Origin: Bifidobacterium aquikefiri
Lineage (GTDB): Bacteria; Actinomycetota; Actinomycetes; Actinomycetales; Bifidobacteriaceae
Direction of reading: 5' to 3'
Assembly: GCF_002259795.1 (NCBI RefSeq)
Contig: NZ_MWXA01000005.1
Location: 186,001 to 250,000 of the forward strand
Length of the DNA: 64,000 nt
Shown: one piece after another, positions 47,852-56,000 of the stretch
How the letters are laid out: every line of letters begins with the position of its first letter
How positions within the stretch are numbered: position 1 is the stretch's first letter
The notes under the pieces: model-generated
Told to the model about the DNA's origin: nothing
The model's input: only the letters and a program-made list of their open reading frames with translations
Database searches by the model: none
Translations under genes and position numbers: made by a program

Positions 47852-48189
47852 TTGATCTAGGCCGAAGTAGCAGCATCATGCATCCCTGCATAACCGCTGT
47901 TCACTCCAACTCAGTGCTGCTCCTTTTCAACGTCTGCGACACAACTTCATGCCGCCATATCCTTTACTTCCTTGTAGATATGAAGAGAACCATCGTTATC
48001 GAATCACTCCGGTGTGCTTGCATACCGAACCTTAGTAATTTTCATCATGAAAATTACTAAGGTAATTCCGTAGTGTACCACGATAAGATTTGAGCTATTA
48101 TGGGCGATTTTGTTCGGAATATGATAAATATTTGGTCGCTTCTGACGAACGGTACTATTCTTCGCTGACTCGATACCATGGCTTGCCAA
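47852..48189. other. Upstream region of the GPH transporter
   Basis: About 340 bases without a gene. It contains the 33-bp palindrome at 48030-48062 and otherwise nothing I can assign. The promoter of the transporter-regulator operon should be here, reading on the minus strand. Confidence 0.4.
48030..48062. promoter_or_regulatory. Perfect 33-bp palindrome, candidate ROK operator
   Basis: Perfect 16-base arms CCTTAGTAATTTTCAT and ATGAAAATTACTAAGG flank a single C. It is AT-rich, unlike a terminator stem, and lies about 180 bases upstream of the GPH transporter start. The TTAGTAA...TTACTAA ends resemble binding sites of ROK/XylR-type repressors. Likely operator for the ROK regulator encoded in the same operon. 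Confidence 0.6.
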
Positions 48190-48468
48190 TCATGGAACGC
48201 CAGACTTACGCGACATGATGCGCCAAGTCGATCCGTGGCCTGCGAAAAAAGCCGATGCCGCCTGTAAAATCTCGTTCGTACCATGCAGCTCGGCATTCTC
48301 GCGCCGTAGTCTCTTCAACTCCGCGAACTCGCCAGGATTCGCGCTCTTCTCCCGGTCTGCCCGCTCATTCCACCGACGCAGTGTCTCCGCCGCGATGCCA
48401 AGATTCCTCGCTACCGTTTCCACCGCTTTCGTCTCAGACGTGTGATTCTCACGGCAATCAGCCAACAA
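48190..48468 (-). pseudogene. IS3-family transposase OrfA remnant
   Basis: The frame encodes ETVARNLGIAAETLRRWNER and AELKRLRRENAELHGTNEIL followed by QAASAFFA, the helix-turn-helix and leucine-zipper part of an IS3-type OrfA. The normal N-terminal part is missing and the end drifts into unrelated sequence (GHGSTWRIMSRKSGVP). No OrfB with a DDE domain follows. This is a dead fragment next to the AT-rich island that begins with the LacI gene. Confidence 0.8.
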
Positions 48469-48588
48469 AGCCGACGCCCGATACCTTCAACTCTAATGAA
48501 CATCTTCCAGACACAATCCCATCATTCCTTATCAAGGAAAAACAGGAGCAAAACCAGACCACATCAGTAGTTGCTAAAAAGTAGCGTT

Positions 48589-49602
48589 TCACGTCGAGGA
48601 ACGGACAACCAACCTTGGCGTGAGCAATATCTTCGCAACCGCATTGCTTGGCCTCGAATCGTGCGAGTGCAACAGATGCCACGTCTCGGAAGCAATTTCA
48701 GAGTATGGCTGATGAATTGTGGTCAAAGAAGGCCGAGCTACCTTGGCAAATGCAGTATCGTCAAACCCGCTTATAGCTATTTCTTCGGGAACATTCAAAC
48801 CTGCAGTCCTAATTGCATTCAATGCACCAAGTGCAATCATGTCGCTCGAACACGCCAATGCCCTCGGTATATCTCCTGAGCTAACAATCTTCTCTATTGC
48901 TGCTTGTCCCCATTCCATATTGTGTTCTCCAAGTTGTATCCATGATTGCTTTGTGATGATGCCTTCGGCCTGGCAATGTTTTTTAAATGCGGATAAACGA
49001 TCTGCCGCAGATGAGTCTGTTGCGTGGGTGCCGATGAAACCGGCTGTTTTGAAGCCTCTAGATCTAAAATGGGAAACTATGAGTTTCATCGCTAAATCAT
49101 CGTTGATTCCTACCCAATTAGAAATCGGGCTACTGACTCTTTGATCTACCTGAACGACCATGGCTTGCGCCGATGCTTGTGATATTGTTTCGGTACTTTT
49201 TTCGATATCGGCGGGTGATATCACTATTCCCGACACTTCATGGTTGAGTAAGGACACAACCTTGTCATGTTCAACGGTTGGATCTCCTTCGGAGGAACAC
49301 AATACTAAATTGAATCCGTCAACGCTAATGACCTTTTCAAAGTATTTTGCTAATGAAGAAAAGAATGGGTTCTCCAAAGTTGGCATCACCATCCCAACCG
49401 TATCTGTTCTGCGTGATCTTAATGCGCTTGCAAAAGGATTTCGTTTATATCCCAGTGCTTTTGCCGCAGAAAGAACACGTTCACGCTTTTCCTGGTTGAC
49501 GCGGCCTGTTTGTGTAAGGACTCTTGAAACAGTGGCAATTGATACATTCGAGGCCTTTGCGACATCAGAAATCAATACTCTGTGCTCTGCCTTTGCACGC
49601 AT
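48589..49602 (-). CDS. LacI family transcriptional regulator
   Basis: 337-residue repressor. The N-terminal helix-turn-helix is VLISDVAKASNVSIATVSRV with the hinge helix segment KRNPFASALRSRRTDTVGMV; the rest is a periplasmic-binding-protein-like effector domain (ISGFDDTAFAKVARPSLTTI near the end). GGAGG lies five bases before the ATG at 49602, which is preferred to the frame opening at 49617. It is divergent from the ABC/amidase operon and is its likely regulator; LacI-type sites usually have a central CG such as the one at 49767-49780. Confidence 0.93.
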   Translation of the reverse strand: MRAKAEHRVLISDVAKASNVSIATVSRVLTQTGRVNQEKRERVLSAAKALGYKRNPFASALRSRRTDTVGMVMPTLENPFFSSLAKYFEKVISVDGFNLVLCSSEGDPTVEHDKVVSLLNHEVSGIVISPADIEKSTETISQASAQAMVVQVDQRVSSPISNWVGINDDLAMKLIVSHFRSRGFKTAGFIGTHATDSSAADRLSAFKKHCQAEGIITKQSWIQLGEHNMEWGQAAIEKIVSSGDIPRALACSSDMIALGALNAIRTAGLNVPEEIAISGFDDTAFAKVARPSLTTIHQPYSEIASETWHLLHSHDSRPSNAVAKILLTPRLVVRSST

Positions 49603-49766
49603 TCTTCCTCCACACAATCTGTACCTAGGACATTGCGAGTCTATCGCGCCCTACATAATTGAATACGATTACATAATATCTGATGGTTAACATAAATATC
49701 CAATTAAAAAGTTGTTTACAATGTTGAAATTTTAATGAAAAAAATCGGAATACTATTTCAAGAATA

Positions 49767-49780
49767 AGAAAACGTTTACA
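49767..49780. promoter_or_regulatory. LacI-type operator half-site pair before the binding-protein gene
   Basis: AGAAAACGTTTACA has a central CG and one good half (CGTTTACA) of the LacI-family consensus TGTAAACGTTTACA; five of seven bases match in the other half. It overlaps the region just before the ribosome binding site AAAGGAAAG of the lipoprotein gene at 49792. A second half-like TTGTTTACA lies at 49712-49720. Confidence 0.5.
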
Positions 49781-49791
49781 AAAGGAAAGAT

Positions 49792-50817
49792 ATGAAAGCA
49801 TTAAAAGCTATATCCACATCCGCTTTGGTCACTGCTTTAATTGTTGCGCTAGCAGGGTGTGGCGCAAATCAATCTGCTTCTGAACCTTCAACATCTGATG
49901 GATTGGTCACTGTCAAGATGGTGCAGGAATGGCCAACGGGAGATGCCCAGTGGATCCCTTGGGTAGTCGCGAAAGAAAAGGGGTATTACAAGGCAGCAGG
50001 CATTAATCTCGATATTCAGGTGCCTCCAAATACTTCAGCTACCATGCAATATTTGGGTACCGGAAGATCAGATATTGCTTTCGCTGGATCCATTGATGTC
50101 GTCTCGGCGGTCGCTGAAGATGCTCCCGTGATTAGTATTGCAAAATACGGAAGCATGAATAATGCTGGAATTATTGCACTCAAGGGTAAACCGACAAATC
50201 CAAAAGAGCTTAAGGGCAAGACCATTGGTACCTATGGGGATGCTTGGAGTAAAGCACAGTTGGAAATAATGCTCAAAAATGTTGGTTTAACAATAGACGA
50301 TGTCCATCTTGTCACAGCAACTGATGATGATGTCCCTCTCCTTATGCAGAAAAAGGTTGATGCAATTACAGGCACACAAATGGCTGAGGGAAGCGAGTTG
50401 AAATCCTTAGGTGTGACGAATTATGAAATGAGCTATGGGAAAGATTTTGGTGTTCCTAATGCTCCCGTTCTGAATTTAGCAGCGAACAAAACATGGCTGG
50501 AAAAGAATAAAACTCTTGCAAAGGCATTTATCAAGGCCACGGTAAAGGGAATCAATTATGCTCGATCACATAAAACTGAAGCTGTATCAATATTCCTGAA
50601 AGCATATCCTAAAGCCGAAACAGAGCAGTTCGCCACTCAACAGTGGGAGGATACTTCCGCACTCTTCGGAGCCGAAAATGTGACGGTGAAAAGTTCAGAT
50701 TTAGCTCAGAAGAAATCTGTATGGAAAAGCCTTGTTTCTGCTGCAGCCAAATACAAAATCGTAGATCAAACACAACAGGCTTCTACATATTTCACCAATG
50801 AATTGACAGAGGAATAA
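49792..50817 (+). CDS. ABC substrate-binding lipoprotein, NMT1/SsuA-type
   Basis: Solute-binding protein of the NMT1/ThiY/SsuA/TauA superfamily, 341 residues, anchored by a lipobox cysteine at residue 23 (VALAGC). After the signal peptide it shows EWPTGDAQWIPWVVAKEKGY, MQYLGTGRSDIAFAGSIDVV, LKGKTIGTYGDAWSKAQLEI and DAITGTQMAEGSE, the usual pattern of this fold. Members bind sulfonates, nitrate, taurine or formylaminopyrimidines; the ligand here is unknown. First gene of an operon of six on the plus strand, divergent from lacI. The gene is visibly AT-rich compared with the flanks. Confidence 0.88.
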   Translation: MKALKAISTSALVTALIVALAGCGANQSASEPSTSDGLVTVKMVQEWPTGDAQWIPWVVAKEKGYYKAAGINLDIQVPPNTSATMQYLGTGRSDIAFAGSIDVVSAVAEDAPVISIAKYGSMNNAGIIALKGKPTNPKELKGKTIGTYGDAWSKAQLEIMLKNVGLTIDDVHLVTATDDDVPLLMQKKVDAITGTQMAEGSELKSLGVTNYEMSYGKDFGVPNAPVLNLAANKTWLEKNKTLAKAFIKATVKGINYARSHKTEAVSIFLKAYPKAETEQFATQQWEDTSALFGAENVTVKSSDLAQKKSVWKSLVSAAAKYKIVDQTQQASTYFTNELTEE

Positions 50818-50818
50818 A

Positions 50819-51565
50819 ATGAAAATTCTTTTAGCCGGTGAATCTTGGACTACGGTTTCAACTCATATCAAAGGTTTCGATACCTTTACTACATCAGTCT
50901 ATGAGGAAGGTTGCACAGAATTTCTCAATGCCATACATCGCGAAGGCATTGAGTATGACTTCATTCCCAATCATTTAGCTGCAACGAAGTTCCCCAATAC
51001 TCTCGAAGAGATGAATAAATATGATGTGATTGTACTGAGTGATATCGGAGCGAATACACTGCTGCTACCCCCCAGTGTTTTTAACAGTCAACAGAAACAT
51101 CCCAATCGATTGAATGCCATCGCCGAATGGGTAAAACAGGGTGGAAGCTTTTTAATGGTTGGTGGCTATCTTAGCTTCCAGGGCATCGAAGCCAAGGCTC
51201 AATACCATCGCACAGCCATTGAGAATATTCTCCCTGTCGAACTTCTTGAAGGCGATGACAGAGTGGAAGCCCCACAAGGGATGATTCCTCACGTTGAGGA
51301 CCCATCATTTTTTTCGAAGATCGACGCGCAGTGGCCAAGCATTCTTGGTTATCAGGTACTTGTTGCAAAGAAAAATACGAAAACGATCCTCACGATTGGC
51401 GAGCAAAAGCATCCTTTATTGGTGGTTGGTGAAATCGGTAAAGGACGCAGCGCAGCGTTTGCAACAGATATGGGACCACATTGGCTTTCAAAAGAATTCA
51501 TGGATTGGCAAGGCTATTCAAAGCTTTGGCTCGGGATTTTATCATGGCTAGTAAGGAGAAAATAG
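50819..51565 (+). CDS. GATase1-like protein (PF07090 type)
   Basis: 248-residue protein with the class I glutamine amidotransferase-like fold of the putative cytoplasmic GATase1_like family. It reads MKILLAGESWTTVSTHIKGF, YDVIVLSDIGANTLLLPPSV, WVKQGGSFLMVGGYLSFQGI and KGRSAAFATDMGPHWLS. The catalytic cysteine of true glutamine amidotransferases is not at the usual nucleophile elbow, where GGYLSF is found, so glutaminase activity is doubtful. It begins one base after the binding-protein stop, so it belongs to the operon. Its role in the pathway is unknown. Confidence 0.75.
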   Translation: MKILLAGESWTTVSTHIKGFDTFTTSVYEEGCTEFLNAIHREGIEYDFIPNHLAATKFPNTLEEMNKYDVIVLSDIGANTLLLPPSVFNSQQKHPNRLNAIAEWVKQGGSFLMVGGYLSFQGIEAKAQYHRTAIENILPVELLEGDDRVEAPQGMIPHVEDPSFFSKIDAQWPSILGYQVLVAKKNTKTILTIGEQKHPLLVVGEIGKGRSAAFATDMGPHWLSKEFMDWQGYSKLWLGILSWLVRRK

Positions 51566-51566
51566 A

Positions 51567-52253
51567 ATGAGCGATCACGATAAGGTCAATATTGCATTAA
51601 GCAATAAACCCCCGCAAGGGCTGGTGACAGCTCAAAGAATGGCAATAGAGTCTGCAGAGAAAATCGTTCATGAAACTATGCCTGGCGAAACCGAGAAAGG
51701 TGTGCTTTCCCGCCTGGAAAACTGCGCAAGGGCAAAGGGGGCAGTAGGTTTCTGGACTCCCACAGTAGTGGGTTTTGGCCCAGGCTCATTGAGCTGTTTT
51801 CCAACAGACAAACCATCAGACAGACCGCTTTGGAATATCGATATTGGGCATGTTGATGTGCATCCTGTGACGGAAGAGGGATGGTGGGGAGATTGTACTA
51901 GAACGATCGTTGTGGGAAATCATCCCAGACACCACGAAATTTTGAGTACATTGTCTCGAATACACCATGAGGTTCTATCGTCTTTGGAGCCAGAGATGCG
52001 TGCCTGTGATGCTTTTCAACTCTTTGAAAGGAAGTTGAAAACGACGCCATATCGCCTTTTGGATCGTCTTGAAAATATTGGCCATTCGTTATCGCAAGGG
52101 GGATCATATGAGGATGGATATCTCAATAGATGGAATAAATCTGTCTTAAAGGGTGCCTGGGCTTTCGAACCATTCATCGGTACAGATCTATACGGTGCGA
52201 AAATTGAAGATGTTATGTGGTTTGGTCCTTCTTCGTGTGTTTGGGTGAAATGA
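51567..52253 (+). CDS. Short M24 (pita-bread) metallopeptidase-like protein
   Basis: 228 residues with only the catalytic pita-bread domain and no N-terminal prolidase/creatinase domain. All five metal ligands of the M24 family are in place: Asp92 (NIDIGHVD), Asp109 (WWGDCTRT), His173 (ENIGHSLSQ), Glu201 (WAFEPFIG) and Glu214 (AKIEDVMW). The protein is therefore probably a di-metal hydrolase, acting on a small amide or imide bond rather than a peptide given its neighbours. It starts one base after the previous stop and ends one base before the ATPase gene. Confidence 0.8.
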   Translation: MSDHDKVNIALSNKPPQGLVTAQRMAIESAEKIVHETMPGETEKGVLSRLENCARAKGAVGFWTPTVVGFGPGSLSCFPTDKPSDRPLWNIDIGHVDVHPVTEEGWWGDCTRTIVVGNHPRHHEILSTLSRIHHEVLSSLEPEMRACDAFQLFERKLKTTPYRLLDRLENIGHSLSQGGSYEDGYLNRWNKSVLKGAWAFEPFIGTDLYGAKIEDVMWFGPSSCVWVK

Positions 52254-52254
52254 C

Positions 52255-53010
52255 ATGACAGAAAAATTACTCATTGACAATGTGTCAAAAACCTTCAATG
52301 GCAAGATTTCTCTTGATACGACTTCTTTATCCGTTTCTGATGGTGAACTTATAACAATAGTAGGACCATCAGGATGCGGCAAAAGCACGCTGTTTAACAT
52401 CATTTCTGGAGTTCTGCAGCCAACGGAGGGCAATGTAATTATCAACGATAAAGACGTAACCAACGTCCCAGGAAACGTTGGCTATATGATGCAGAAAGAT
52501 CTTTTGCTGCCTTGGAAATCGACTCTTGAAAATATCTTGACGGGTGTATCTTTAACCAGAAAACCAACGAAAGAAGACTTGGAACTAGCCATCAGCATGG
52601 CACAAGAGTATGGCTTAGGCGATTATCTAGACAATTTTCCGCATTCGATGAGTGGTGGAATGAGACAACGGGCAGCATTTCTGAGAACACTCATGTTTGA
52701 TAGAGACGTGCTTCTGCTGGATGAACCTTTCGGTGCCCTTGACAGCCAGACGCGATTGTCAATGCAGGAATGGCTGTTGAAAGTCTGGGCAGAACAGCGC
52801 AGGACTGTGCTTTTTGTCACTCATGATGTTGAAGAAGCTGTTTTTCTGGCTGACAGAGTTGTGGTGATGACTCCAAGACCCGGGCGCATAGAAAAGATCA
52901 TTGATATCGATCTACCAAGACCAAGGACTAGGACCATTTTGACAGATCAAAAGTTCGTCGAATATAAACGAATGATTCTGAATTTGATTTATGGTGGTGG
53001 AAAGGAATGA
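52255..53010 (+). CDS. ABC transporter ATP-binding protein, SsuB/TauB type
   Basis: 251-residue ATPase. Walker A is IVGPSGCGKSTLFNIISG, Q-loop YMMQKDLLLPWKSTLENI, signature MSGGMRQRAAFLRTL, Walker B RDVLLLDEPFGALDSQT, switch histidine FVTHDVEEAVFLADRVVVM. The short LLPWKS after the Q is typical of the nitrate/sulfonate/taurine subfamily and matches the NMT1-type binding protein and the permease downstream. Confidence 0.93.
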   Translation: MTEKLLIDNVSKTFNGKISLDTTSLSVSDGELITIVGPSGCGKSTLFNIISGVLQPTEGNVIINDKDVTNVPGNVGYMMQKDLLLPWKSTLENILTGVSLTRKPTKEDLELAISMAQEYGLGDYLDNFPHSMSGGMRQRAAFLRTLMFDRDVLLLDEPFGALDSQTRLSMQEWLLKVWAEQRRTVLFVTHDVEEAVFLADRVVVMTPRPGRIEKIIDIDLPRPRTRTILTDQKFVEYKRMILNLIYGGGKE

Positions 53011-53014
53011 GATT

Positions 53015-53872
53015 ATGAGCAACGAAAAACCTAAAACAATCAGTTCAATTTCTGATTCAAACTCATCAAGTATTTTTTATCCCATTATTTCTATCATTGG
53101 TCTGATTTTCTTATGGTGGGCGGTGGTTGAGGCATTTGACATTCCTGAATATGTCTTGCCTGGGCCTTTTGCAACGTTTCATGAAATAATCTTAGACTGG
53201 CCTGAACTCTGGCATGGTTTCACAAGTACCGGGCAAGAGTTTGTGTATGGTTTCATTATCGGTTCGCTTGTTGGATTTGTTCTTGCAGTGATTATGGCCA
53301 ATTCTAAACTCTTGAACAAGATATTGTATCCAATCATGATAGTAAGCCAGGCAATTCCGGTAATAGCCATTGGAGCTGCACTCGTCATTTGGCTTGGATT
53401 TGGTCTAGCTCCGAAGCTAGTCATTATCGCTCTTATTGTTTTCTTCCCTGTACTGATTAATGTACTGGACGGATTGCAGTCGGTTGATGTGGACATGCTG
53501 AATTTGTCAAAGGCAATGGGCGCTAACCGGTGGAGAATATTCTTGACTGTTCAATTGCCCGCCACATATGTGCCTCTTTTTTCGGCACTGAAAATGTCTG
53601 CTACTTTCAGTGTGACTGGGGCGGTTCTTGCTGAACAGACTGCTTCAAGTCAAGCTGGACTTGGCCAGTATATGATGGCCCAGGCCTCAAGGTTAAATAC
53701 AAAGGGCACTTTTGCGGCAATTATATTATTTGCCATCATGGGTCTTCTCGCATTCTCCCTGGTGTCGGTATGGGAGAGGCTGGCCACCCCTTGGAAGCAG
53801 CATTCAAAGGTACCGTTCTATCGACAGGCAAGGATTGCTCACAGAGACATACCGTCATCGCAGGTCAAATGA
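53015..53872 (+). CDS. ABC transporter permease, SsuC/TauC type
   Basis: 285 residues, six predicted membrane segments. The EAA-like coupling loop NLSKAMGANRWRIFLTVQLP and the preceding SQAIPVIAIGAALVIWLGFG are typical of the SsuC/TauC/ThiX group. The ATG at 53015 has AAAGGA upstream; the frame opens eight codons earlier inside the ATPase gene. With the two genes before it the transporter is complete: lipoprotein, ATPase and one permease working as a homodimer. Confidence 0.92.
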   Translation: MSNEKPKTISSISDSNSSSIFYPIISIIGLIFLWWAVVEAFDIPEYVLPGPFATFHEIILDWPELWHGFTSTGQEFVYGFIIGSLVGFVLAVIMANSKLLNKILYPIMIVSQAIPVIAIGAALVIWLGFGLAPKLVIIALIVFFPVLINVLDGLQSVDVDMLNLSKAMGANRWRIFLTVQLPATYVPLFSALKMSATFSVTGAVLAEQTASSQAGLGQYMMAQASRLNTKGTFAAIILFAIMGLLAFSLVSVWERLATPWKQHSKVPFYRQARIAHRDIPSSQVK

Positions 53873-53973
53873 TCTTTATGATTTCGTGATCAGTATACAC
53901 AAGTGGTGTAACGCCAAAGCATATATTTGTGAGTCTCGGATTTCACTGTGTTACAGGATGTGAAAGGAACATT

Positions 53974-54813
53974 ATGGTAAAGGTTGCATCGATACAGTTT
54001 GAGCCCAGATTAGGCAATGTTCAATGGAATGGAGAAACCACGGTTTCCAAAATTCATGAATCAGCCGATTCAGGAGCTAAAATTATCGTGATGCCAGAAC
54101 TGGCCGCTTGTGGTTATATGTTTAGAGACAAAGAGGAACTCAAAGCATCGTCTGATGATTTGTCTGGTACGCAGAGAGAATCCACTGTTATGGCTTGGAG
54201 ATCCGTTGCCATGAAGCGACAGGTTCTAGTCATTGGCGGATTCGCACATCGTGTGCATGAGGAAATTTTCAATGCGTCTATTGCAATCTTGCCGGACGGA
54301 AAATTTTATATCTATCATAAACTTCATCTCTGGGGTGCTGAGAAAGAAATTTTCTCTCCGGGTGAGAATTTATTGATGCCGTTTGAAACCCCGTATGGGA
54401 AATTGGCAATGTTGATCTGTTACGATATTTGGTTTCCTGAAACGGTCCGCGCCCTTGCTCTGAATGGCGCCGAGGTTCTTTGTGTCCCAACCAATTGGGT
54501 TCCAATGCGTCATATGACGGCATCCGAACTAGGACTTGCACCAATGCTCATGCAAACGAACAGTCTTGTCAATGGCATCTACTCCATAGCGGCTGATCGG
54601 ATTGGAACCGAGAGAGGGCAAGATTTCATTGGACAAAGTGTAATTGTGGGAAATGATGGATTGATACTTTCGGGGCCGGCCAGTCCAAACGAGTCTTCGA
54701 TAATGTATGCCAGCATTAACCCTGAAAACATAGAGAAGGAAAGAAATTGGAGTAAATGGAACAACCCAATTAATGATCGAAGACGAGACATTCTTAAACT
54801 CTCAATTGATTGA
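53974..54813 (+). CDS. Carbon-nitrogen hydrolase (nitrilase superfamily)
   Basis: 279-residue amidase of the nitrilase superfamily. The catalytic triad is visible: Glu42 in VMPELAACGY, Lys116 in YIYHKLHLWG and Cys149 in MLICYDIWFPE. AAAGGA precedes the ATG at 53974; about 100 bases separate it from the permease with no terminator, so it may still belong to the operon. Members cleave carbamoyl, amide or nitrile groups (for example N-carbamoylputrescine or omega-amides). It is convergent with the M20 gene, 21 bases away. Confidence 0.9.
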   Translation: MVKVASIQFEPRLGNVQWNGETTVSKIHESADSGAKIIVMPELAACGYMFRDKEELKASSDDLSGTQRESTVMAWRSVAMKRQVLVIGGFAHRVHEEIFNASIAILPDGKFYIYHKLHLWGAEKEIFSPGENLLMPFETPYGKLAMLICYDIWFPETVRALALNGAEVLCVPTNWVPMRHMTASELGLAPMLMQTNSLVNGIYSIAADRIGTERGQDFIGQSVIVGNDGLILSGPASPNESSIMYASINPENIEKERNWSKWNNPINDRRRDILKLSID

Positions 54814-54834
54814 GTAACTTGATCTTGGTGCGTT

Positions 54835-55956
54835 TCATAAAGCGACGATTGACGAGAAGGCCTGGCAAGCGCGAGAGAGCTGCTCGCTCTCTACAAATTC
54901 ATCGGCAGCGTGAACCACTGATGGGTTACCAGGCCCTAAAACGATTATTGGACAATCTTTCGGCGTTGCCGGTTCTAGTATGCTTGCATCGGTGAAATAT
55001 GGAACGGTGCCGTTGCCAAATAAGCCAAATCTTTCAATCAATGCATGAGCAAGAGGCAGCTTTGGATTTGTCCAAACAGGATTTAACCTCAATATGGTCT
55101 GTACCTCACTAATGCCCCTAAACGATGTAAACCAATCTTGCATGGGAGCAATGTTTTCCTTCACTATTCTGTAATCGAAAATAGCCTTGCAACAATCCGG
55201 CACAATATTATTCGCAATGCCGGAGTTGATAAGGTCTGGGCTAAGAGTCTCCTTCCCTAGATATTGGTCTATCTGATATGGAGCCGAATCAAGGCTTGCG
55301 ATGACTTTTGACATTGAACAAATTGCATTACTGCCCAACTGAGGAGAGGAAGCATGTGCAGATTTCCCTTTTGAAGTGATTGAAAACCATGCTGCGCCCC
55401 TATGCCCTAGCGCTGCTTTCATATTGGTAGATTCGGCAACAATCACGATTTTAGGTTGCAATTCGGAAAGTGTTTTAAACGCTGAAGGGGCACCCAAGCA
55501 GCCAAGCTCTTCATCGCATGTAACTATGAGTGCTGCGCTCCTTGAATGCGAAGCTGCATAAGCAAGTGCAATCATGCCTGCAACTAAGCCAGATTTCATA
55601 TCGCTTGTTCCACGTCCATAAATCTTCCCATCGATCTCTACTGGTTTGGTGGGTTCTGCAATTGACCAGGCTTCCTGATTCAGAGGAACTGTGTCGATAT
55701 GGGCTAAAAATAGCACAGGTCGAGCTTGACTGTTGGAAGTGTGAGCATACAAGAATGGGAATTTTGTCTTGCGGTCTACGCGTACGCTGCAGTTTGCTTG
55801 GGTAAGCCAGTCCGCAATTACCCGTAATGCTTGCTCCTGCGTTGCTGATCCGCTTATTGTATTTATGCTGATTAATTCTTTAAAGATGCTTTCCCATTGA
55901 TTTTCAATATCATTATCTGAATTTGTATTCAACATGGAACAATTATCTTTCACCAT
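54835..55956 (-). CDS. M20 family amidohydrolase (ArgE/DapE-like)
   Basis: About 373 residues, metal-dependent hydrolase of the M20 family that removes acyl groups from amino acids or related amines. Metal and catalytic motifs: LFLAHIDTVP, YGRGTSDMKSGLVAG, TCDEELGCLGAP, VAESTNMKAALGHRG, and the late VVHAADEFVESEQL. The start is uncertain: ATG at 55956 has GGGA upstream, ATG at 55935 and the frame opening at 55995 are alternatives. It is transcribed from next to the tRNA-Asn terminator toward the amidase operon, and completes the hydrolase set of the island. Confidence 0.85.
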   Translation of the reverse strand: MVKDNCSMLNTNSDNDIENQWESIFKELISINTISGSATQEQALRVIADWLTQANCSVRVDRKTKFPFLYAHTSNSQARPVLFLAHIDTVPLNQEAWSIAEPTKPVEIDGKIYGRGTSDMKSGLVAGMIALAYAASHSRSAALIVTCDEELGCLGAPSAFKTLSELQPKIVIVAESTNMKAALGHRGAAWFSITSKGKSAHASSPQLGSNAICSMSKVIASLDSAPYQIDQYLGKETLSPDLINSGIANNIVPDCCKAIFDYRIVKENIAPMQDWFTSFRGISEVQTILRLNPVWTNPKLPLAHALIERFGLFGNGTVPYFTDASILEPATPKDCPIIVLGPGNPSVVHAADEFVESEQLSRACQAFSSIVAL

Positions 55957-56000
55957 TATTCCCAGCGTGTGAATCAAATGATGTGAATTGCACAATGGAA

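Follow-up and report, generated by a model that had tools for sequence, protein, structure and literature searches.

We examined a 64,000-nucleotide stretch of the Bifidobacterium aquikefiri genome (contig NZ_MWXA01000005.1, positions 186,001 to 250,000; hereafter the window) and found that an island of eight genes within it, encoding an NMT1/THI5-like importer of the ATP-binding cassette (ABC) type, a GATase1-like protein, M24, nitrilase-superfamily and M20 enzymes and a LacI-family repressor, belongs to a gene set found in Actinomycetota, Alphaproteobacteria and Gammaproteobacteria, in several gene orders. A preliminary description, made from the sequence alone, had not recognised the combination, which is not peculiar to this genome. 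Because related sets occur in other bacterial groups, the conserved importer-hydrolase set appears to be a genuine pathway and not a patch put together by chance. We tentatively favour the reading that the operon imports and hydrolyses a small N-heterocycle-like compound that bears an amide and probably resembles a nucleobase or pyrimidine, and our best reading, which we infer from its relatives, is that the island represents, within a broader family of nucleoside-type catabolic clusters, the branch that is 'sugar-free'. All parts come from known families, and what is new is the gene combination together with an importer-dependent pattern among its relatives. A search of the open-licence literature found no paper describing this gene set, which is weak evidence of novelty.

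Recurrence of the gene set and the importer-dependent pattern

The preliminary description had proposed looking for the same genes elsewhere, and this search found all eight in B. psychraerophilum (L005), with identities of 70% for the solute-binding protein (SBP), 62% for the GATase1-like protein, 69% for M24, 75% for the ATPase, 70% for the permease, 41% for the nitrilase, 33% for M20 and 47% for LacI, which is divergent there too. The order differs in that M20 adjoins LacI in B. psychraerophilum and is not convergent as in B. aquikefiri. The core set is also present in Mycobacterium, Wenjunlia, Rhizobiales and Klebsiella/Raoultella plasmids, and M24-based searches gave 12 loci in GTDB contigs and nine plasmid records. 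An M24 match was found in 7 of the 297 genomes from the order to which the Rhizobiales centre belongs (this centre being among them), in 1 of the 201 from the family of the Mycobacterium centre, which is the centre itself, and, at E <= 1e-15, in 1 of 396 genomes drawn from the phylum, which is the B. aquikefiri genome. Among 98 other relatives, a high-identity M24 was found in B. psychraerophilum alone, with a weak match in one further genome (E 4e-6). The gene set is thus rare but widespread. Three plasmid records, two of them typed as conjugative, carry the Klebsiella/Raoultella version (L034, 6064-12327) with 100% identity across 6,264 bases, which suggests recent spread; E. coli genomes gave no near copy of it.

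Next, we tallied the genes within 7.5 kb of the M24 gene in 24 loci, assigning labels by similarity to seed proteins at 1e-8 and not by curated names; Pfam confirms sample members of the partner families. An importer was present near M24 in all 24 loci, NMT1-type in 17, ECF in six and BMP alone in one (L008), with L017, which has both NMT1 and BMP importers, counted under NMT1. A GATase1-like gene accompanies M24 in 20 loci. We observe a nitrilase in 16 of the 17 NMT1 loci against none of the seven loci with other importers, and a PfkB-type kinase in all seven of the latter against one NMT1 locus (Wenjunlia; PfkB confirmed by Pfam). Fisher's test gives p = 2e-5 for nitrilase and likewise for kinase, and because these values ignore shared descent and near-duplicates the pattern is best taken as a hypothesis. 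The loci form a convenience sample that includes close relatives, L033 and L034 being identical over the cluster and L103/L104 and L102/L105 nearly so; L007 (NZ_JGZI01000009.1) was dropped as a duplicate of L005, and Shinella H42-H44 and Klebsiella H47 were left out. M20 genes occur in 13 of the 24 loci, every one of them NMT1-type, and are either ArgE/DapE-like or, in rhizobial versions, carbamoylase-like. The carbamoylase type was assigned by a match to the TIGR01879 model in Shinella and Neorhizobium (367 and 364 bits; cut-off 204) and by similarity to the Shinella protein in other rhizobia.

Furthermore, 29 loci have a GATase1-like gene and no M24, and in these we find Rbs importers (18 loci), phosphotriesterase-family (PTE) genes (18), kinases (17), M20 (8), TenA (6), BtpA (6), nucleoside hydrolases (4) and not a single nitrilase. 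Of 193 plasmid records with a GATase1-like match, seven were taken by that search (H1, H3, H6, H8, H12, H14 and H16); L037, with GATase1-like and kinase matches, stands outside this tally. Partial GATase1-like hits (profile positions 87-246; frames of at least 685 residues, one of 67) were treated as another protein type and left out. The sole GATase1-like match in the B. aquikefiri genome is the island gene. Elsewhere in that genome, on contig C12 (L160, 7623-8351), a distant TenA-family gene follows a ribose-type set of SBP, ATPase and permease genes, as in the Rbs-type clusters.

The simplest account of these associations is a shared enzymatic core that serves related compounds, some of which enter carrying a sugar (kinase, at times nucleoside hydrolase) and others sugar-free (NMT1 importer, nitrilase). 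In trees built, like the residue extractions, from 35 loci, enzyme lineages cross the importer types: ECF- and BMP-type M24 proteins are nested inside actinobacterial NMT1-type M24 (99/96), a GATase1-like protein from one rhizobial Rbs-type locus joins those of NMT1-type Shinella and Neorhizobium (97/88), and the window M20 groups with Rbs-type clusters of two congeners and with NMT1-type B. psychraerophilum and Mycobacterium (97/100). Elsewhere in the trees, support is weak at many branches and some rows are long; for the window nitrilase, the placement is not reliable. L008 and L017 each carry two M24 paralogues, the second copies forming a separate long-branched clade, which suggests a second step or a heteromer. 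In the ECF loci, the S component (L011, 3386-4036, and relatives) is nearest the CD3073 family (108 bits, cut-off 180); it lies beside BtpA, PfkB and the GATase1-like/M24 pair and may help to assign the ligand.

Enzymes, importer and regulation of the island

All eight genes are open, and each has a named domain in a Pfam profile search (E-values: NMT1 PF09084, 8e-47; GATase1_like PF07090, 2e-99; M24 PF00557, 2e-15; ABC_tran, 4e-31; BPD_transp_1, 2e-27; CN_hydrolase PF00795, 9e-45; M20 PF01546, 2e-25, with an M20 dimerisation domain; LacI, 2e-15, with Peripla_BP_3). The layout first described, a complete importer and hydrolases beside a divergent LacI gene, was confirmed in its domains and coordinates (Table 1). 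For M20, position 55956 is an internal ATG, and its longest open reading frame (ORF) begins with TTG.

Table 1. Features of the island and its surroundings (window positions)
Feature	Position	Strand	Remarks
LacI-family repressor	48589..49617	-	divergent; nearest NCBIfam model RbsR, 192 bits vs cut-off 382
LacI operator-like site TGTAATCGTATTCA	49660..49673	site reads on minus strand	match to TGTAANCGNTTNCA with at most 1 mismatch
LacI operator-like site TGTAAACGTTTTCT	49767..49780	site reads on minus strand	close upstream of SBP gene; match to TGTAANCGNTTNCA with at most 1 mismatch
NMT1/THI5-like SBP of ABC importer	49792..50817	+	domain match, structure relatives
GATase1_like protein (PF07090), without nucleophile cysteine	50819..51565	+	domain match; structures 2gk3, 3soz
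Stand-alone M24 (pita-bread) metallohydrolase	51567..52253	+	presumed metal ligands D97 D109 H173 E201 E214
ABC importer ATPase	52255..53010	+	domain match
ABC importer permease	53016..53872	+	ORF open from 52991; start picked by eye
Nitrilase-superfamily C-N hydrolase	53974..54813	+	ORF open from 53929; start picked by eye
M20 (ArgE/DapE-type) metallohydrolase	54835..55956	-	convergent; ORF open from 55995
Transposase fragment (HTH_Tnp_1)	48190..48468	-	near left edge of acquired stretch
Entire acquired stretch	48082..55987		flanked by sequence in common with congener G015

The gaps from the SBP gene through GATase1-like, M24, ATPase, permease and nitrilase to M20 are 1, 1, 1, 5, 101 and 21 bp with the permease and nitrilase starts chosen here. 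Since gaps of 1-5 bp separate them, the genes from SBP to permease very probably form a single transcript; the nitrilase gene is likely, but less surely, part of it because of the 101-bp gap. M20 lies on the opposite strand and would need its own promoter, on the tRNA-Asn side. Promoter and terminator consensus scans showed no excess over chance (11 vs 14.7 and 5 vs 7.4, respectively).

As far as residues can be judged from alignments, M24, nitrilase and M20 keep their presumed catalytic residues, and for these the preliminary label of C-N bond hydrolase is plausible. The M24 protein has the presumed metal-ligand pattern D, D, H, E, E, and its predicted model (pLDDT 93) has the prolidase/creatinase/ectoine-hydrolase fold; this model was built from 15 sequences, an earlier two-sequence model (pLDDT 48) having been discarded. 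The nitrilase residues Glu57, Lys131 and Cys164 (longer-ORF numbering), which we take to be the Glu-Lys-Cys catalytic residues, are kept in 15/15 sequences, and the protein scores under the cut-offs of the N-carbamoylputrescine amidase model TIGR03381 (120.4 bits, cut-off 410.25) and the archaeal nitrilase model NF040852 (147.3 bits, cut-off 500). H99, D101, D132, E162, E163 and H362 of M20, presumably its metal-ligand and catalytic residues, are kept in 21/21, with a score of 168.6 bits on the ArgE/DapE deacylase model TIGR01910 (cut-off 217.6). The label does not extend to the GATase1-like protein, which matches PF07090 at 332.6 bits (gathering cut-off 27) and structures 3soz and 2gk3 over nearly its full length (5e-66 and 5e-69). 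A class I glutamine amidotransferase has a catalytic cysteine at the nucleophile elbow, a place that we assign here from the GGYxSF motif; it is occupied by Tyr117, invariant in 32/32 aligned homologues, and the protein is therefore not to be counted as an amidase. Other conserved residues of this protein are D146-D147-R148 and E150.

The SBP matches PF09084 at 160.3 bits (gathering cut-off 20.5). The importer had been called 'SsuABC-type', and although it is complete, this label is too narrow: the SBP reaches 77.2 bits on the SsuA model TIGR01728, far under the curated cut-off of 163.5, and its nearest solved relatives are 4NMY, which is thiamin-bound according to PMC10586155, and 3IX1, deposited as formyl-aminopyrimidine-binding. 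The similarity to both is too low for a ligand to be transferred.

The island operon is probably LacI-controlled. The window contains only two matches to TGTAANCGNTTNCA with at most one mismatch, each with one mismatch and both inside the LacI-SBP gap, and the corresponding gap in B. psychraerophilum holds a one-mismatch site of the same type. In the Rbs-type clusters of congeners G018 and G015 (L025, L026), the LacI-importer gap carries one exact TGTAATCGATTACA and one single-change site. It is the position of the one-mismatch sites in LacI-SBP gaps that counts as evidence and not their number: two or more such hits arose in 28 of 100 shuffles of the 64 kb, and the five hits with at most two mismatches in L005 were matched in 24 of 200 shuffles, with the motif itself selected after viewing sites in relatives. 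In rhizobial versions (L031, L032, L102-L106, L111, L114), a cupin-HTH regulator takes the place of LacI in NMT1-type and Rbs-type clusters alike.

Composition and acquisition

Horizontal acquisition in B. aquikefiri, as first suggested, is well supported by low GC and third-position GC (GC3), by the flanks shared with G015 that bound the stretch and by the transposase fragment near its left edge. GC content is 0.438 in the island against 0.509 in the remaining window, where the lowest value among 80 sampled 7.4-kb stretches (about the first 47 kb) is 0.497. Mean GC3 is 0.41 in six island ORFs of at least 250 residues against 0.53 (standard deviation 0.04) in 30 other ORFs, picked mechanically among long ones, of which one is as low as the highest island ORF. 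The AT-richness noted earlier is therefore real here but is no property of the cluster as such, since in B. psychraerophilum the cluster has 57.9% GC against 58.6% in its flanks and matches its surroundings. The assembly comprises 2,408,364 bases in 18 contigs, and PMC11500810 lists B. aquikefiri LMG 28769 with 52.0% GC, 2.41 Mbp and 18 contigs.

The island site adjoins a tRNA-Asn gene. G015 aligns on the transporter side up to 48081 and on the tRNA-Asn side from 55988; in G018, of which 18 kb were taken, the tRNA-Asn side alone aligns. An empty insertion site in G015 was considered and rejected because its shared flanks enclose 4.3 kb of different DNA, and we therefore call the site variable. 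Looking for mobile-element ends at the island gave just short, chance-like repeats. A perfect 17-nucleotide inverted repeat with a 1-nucleotide centre (48029-48063) lies upstream of the flanking GPH-type transporter gene and may be an operator for the adjacent ROK regulator; G015 has two stretches resembling this transporter gene (L155, 2085-3468 and 9543-11188).

Candidate substrates and known systems

In the favoured reading, the lipoprotein SBP would capture the compound for import by the ATPase and permease, the di-metal M24 enzyme would cleave a C-N bond, possibly opening or trimming a ring, the nitrilase-superfamily enzyme would hydrolyse a carboxamide or ureide to yield ammonia, and M20 would take off an N-acyl, N-formyl or N-carbamoyl group. 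The GATase1-like protein would carry out a step common to nucleoside-type clusters, other than that of a glutaminase, and the compound or a product would release LacI. In the ECF and BMP relatives, the place of the nitrilase is taken by a PfkB-type kinase, joined in some by a nucleoside hydrolase, as would be expected if these relatives import a glycosylated form.

Several observations weigh against this reading. Neither a nucleoside hydrolase nor a kinase gene lies within 7.5 kb of M24 in the window, which makes the nucleoside link purely one of association, and nucleoside hydrolases occur in just 4 of the 24 M24 loci (one of them NMT1-type) and 4 of the 29 loci without M24. The exchange of enzyme lineages among clusters could be a sign of promiscuous families and not of a single class of substrate, and the tallies themselves come from a convenience sample labelled by seed similarity. 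In the Rbs-type clusters of the congeners, the TenA-like protein falls under the Pfam cut-off where tested (17.6 vs 22 bits), which concerns two of the six TenA calls. Additionally, the published RbsR2/RbsR3 operator (PMC4746261) is unlike the island sites. On the supporting side, the model nearest to the island LacI is RbsR, under cut-off, and the same source predicts that bifidobacterial nucleoside genes are regulated by RbsR paralogues.

The preliminary description pointed to stepwise breakdown of an amide, ureide or cyclic imide, and use of a free ureide, hydantoin or cyclic imide as a nitrogen source, with no nucleoside link, is possible but rather doubtful. In its favour, the families of nitrilase, M20 and M24 each include C-N hydrolases, and all three enzymes keep their presumed catalytic residues. 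The carbamoylase-type M20 of Shinella and Neorhizobium, the latter locus lying near hydantoinase and Asp/Glu/hydantoin racemase genes, favours ureides and leaves a ureide step possible. The eight genes, however, include no cyclic-ureide hydrolase, the window M20 is ArgE/DapE-like, and GATase1-like and M24 genes are repeatedly found next to kinase genes and, at some loci, nucleoside hydrolase genes, company that points more to nucleoside-like substrates. Salvage of the thiamin pyrimidine is unlikely, even though the nearest solved SBPs bind thiamin and, by deposited name, formyl-aminopyrimidine (FAMP), the B. aquikefiri genome has three TenA-family genes and no ThiC match (the search was positive in 13 of 14 control genomes), and M20 occurs together with a TenA-like gene in the Rbs-type clusters of two congeners. 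According to PMC5635689, FAMP is a substrate of YlmB in bacteria and TenA proteins take part in the same salvage. Against this stand the low SBP similarity, the lack of any thiamin pyrophosphate (TPP) riboswitch at the gathering threshold in window positions 40-64 kb and in seven related loci, and the absence of TenA from all 24 M24 clusters, the host's own TenA genes lying elsewhere. We also know of no role in that pathway for a nitrilase, M24 or GATase1-like protein. One host TenA gene (L161, 7543-10010 region) already has, by eye, genes for a ThiD-like kinase and a HAD-like protein next to it; taken with the lack of a ThiC match, this may mean that the organism is auxotrophic for the thiamin pyrimidine and salvages it.

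A system that takes up and hydrolyses a modified peptide, opine or amino-acid conjugate, M24 acting as dipeptidase and M20 as deacylase, is slightly less probable still. A patch of unrelated genes joined by insertions would fit the foreign composition, the transposase fragment, the variable site and the far greater divergence of nitrilase and M20 than of the transporter genes from B. psychraerophilum, but the set recurs in several phyla and several gene orders, and we consider chance assembly very improbable.

Returning to the nucleobase- or pyrimidine-like compound, a bolder extension, which we put forward as speculation and think unlikely, is a cross-phylum pathway for damaged or modified nucleosides and bases (e.g. 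formamidopyrimidine- or hydantoin-type lesion products, or modified pyrimidines), in which a GATase1-like/M24/M20 core would be served by interchangeable importers: NMT1 with nitrilase for the free base, and ECF, BMP or ribose-type with kinase, nucleoside hydrolase, PTE, BtpA and TenA for the glycoside. If this were true, the orphan family PF07090 would gain its first function, and if damaged or modified nucleosides are handled, a salvage or detoxification route would exist on islands and plasmids in several bacterial groups. The comparison already gives the solved PF07090 proteins and the stand-alone M24 subfamily, to which the sources searched attach no functional name, a catabolic context that recurs. 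It also yields a falsifiable rule, nitrilase with NMT1 importers and kinase with others, and a short ligand list.

The ThiXYZ-type importer with YlmB/TenA is a FAMP salvage system, and the island resembles it in its NMT1/THI5-like SBP, ATPase, single permease and M20 hydrolase; in contrast, the island has no TPP riboswitch that we could find and no clustered TenA, and adds M24, GATase1-like, nitrilase and a divergent LacI. With the SsuABC/TauABC sulfonate importers it shares the importer architecture, its ATPase and permease scoring on Ssu and Tau models, but all scores are under cut-off and the eight genes contain no sulfur-metabolism domain. 3SOZ (STM1381) and 2GK3 belong to the same PF07090 family, their names ('cytoplasmic proteins') assign no function, and the one literature match for STM1381 is a secretion-signal prediction. 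The M24 protein shares the pita-bread fold and the presumed five metal-ligand positions with ectoine hydrolase DoeA/EutD and creatinase, whereas it is a stand-alone catalytic domain of 228 residues, compared with chains of about 400, at 13-15% identity. Finally, the island differs from the bifidobacterial nucleoside clusters of the RbsR2/RbsR3 regulons, as described in PMC4746261, in having no kinase or nucleoside hydrolase and in sites that resemble TGTAANCGNTTNCA and not TGATAAAACGTTTTATCA, but it is like them in that its LacI is nearest RbsR models and that its GATase1-like, M20 and M24 relatives occur with ribokinase or PfkB kinases, some with a nucleoside hydrolase, and with nucleoside- or ribose-type importers.

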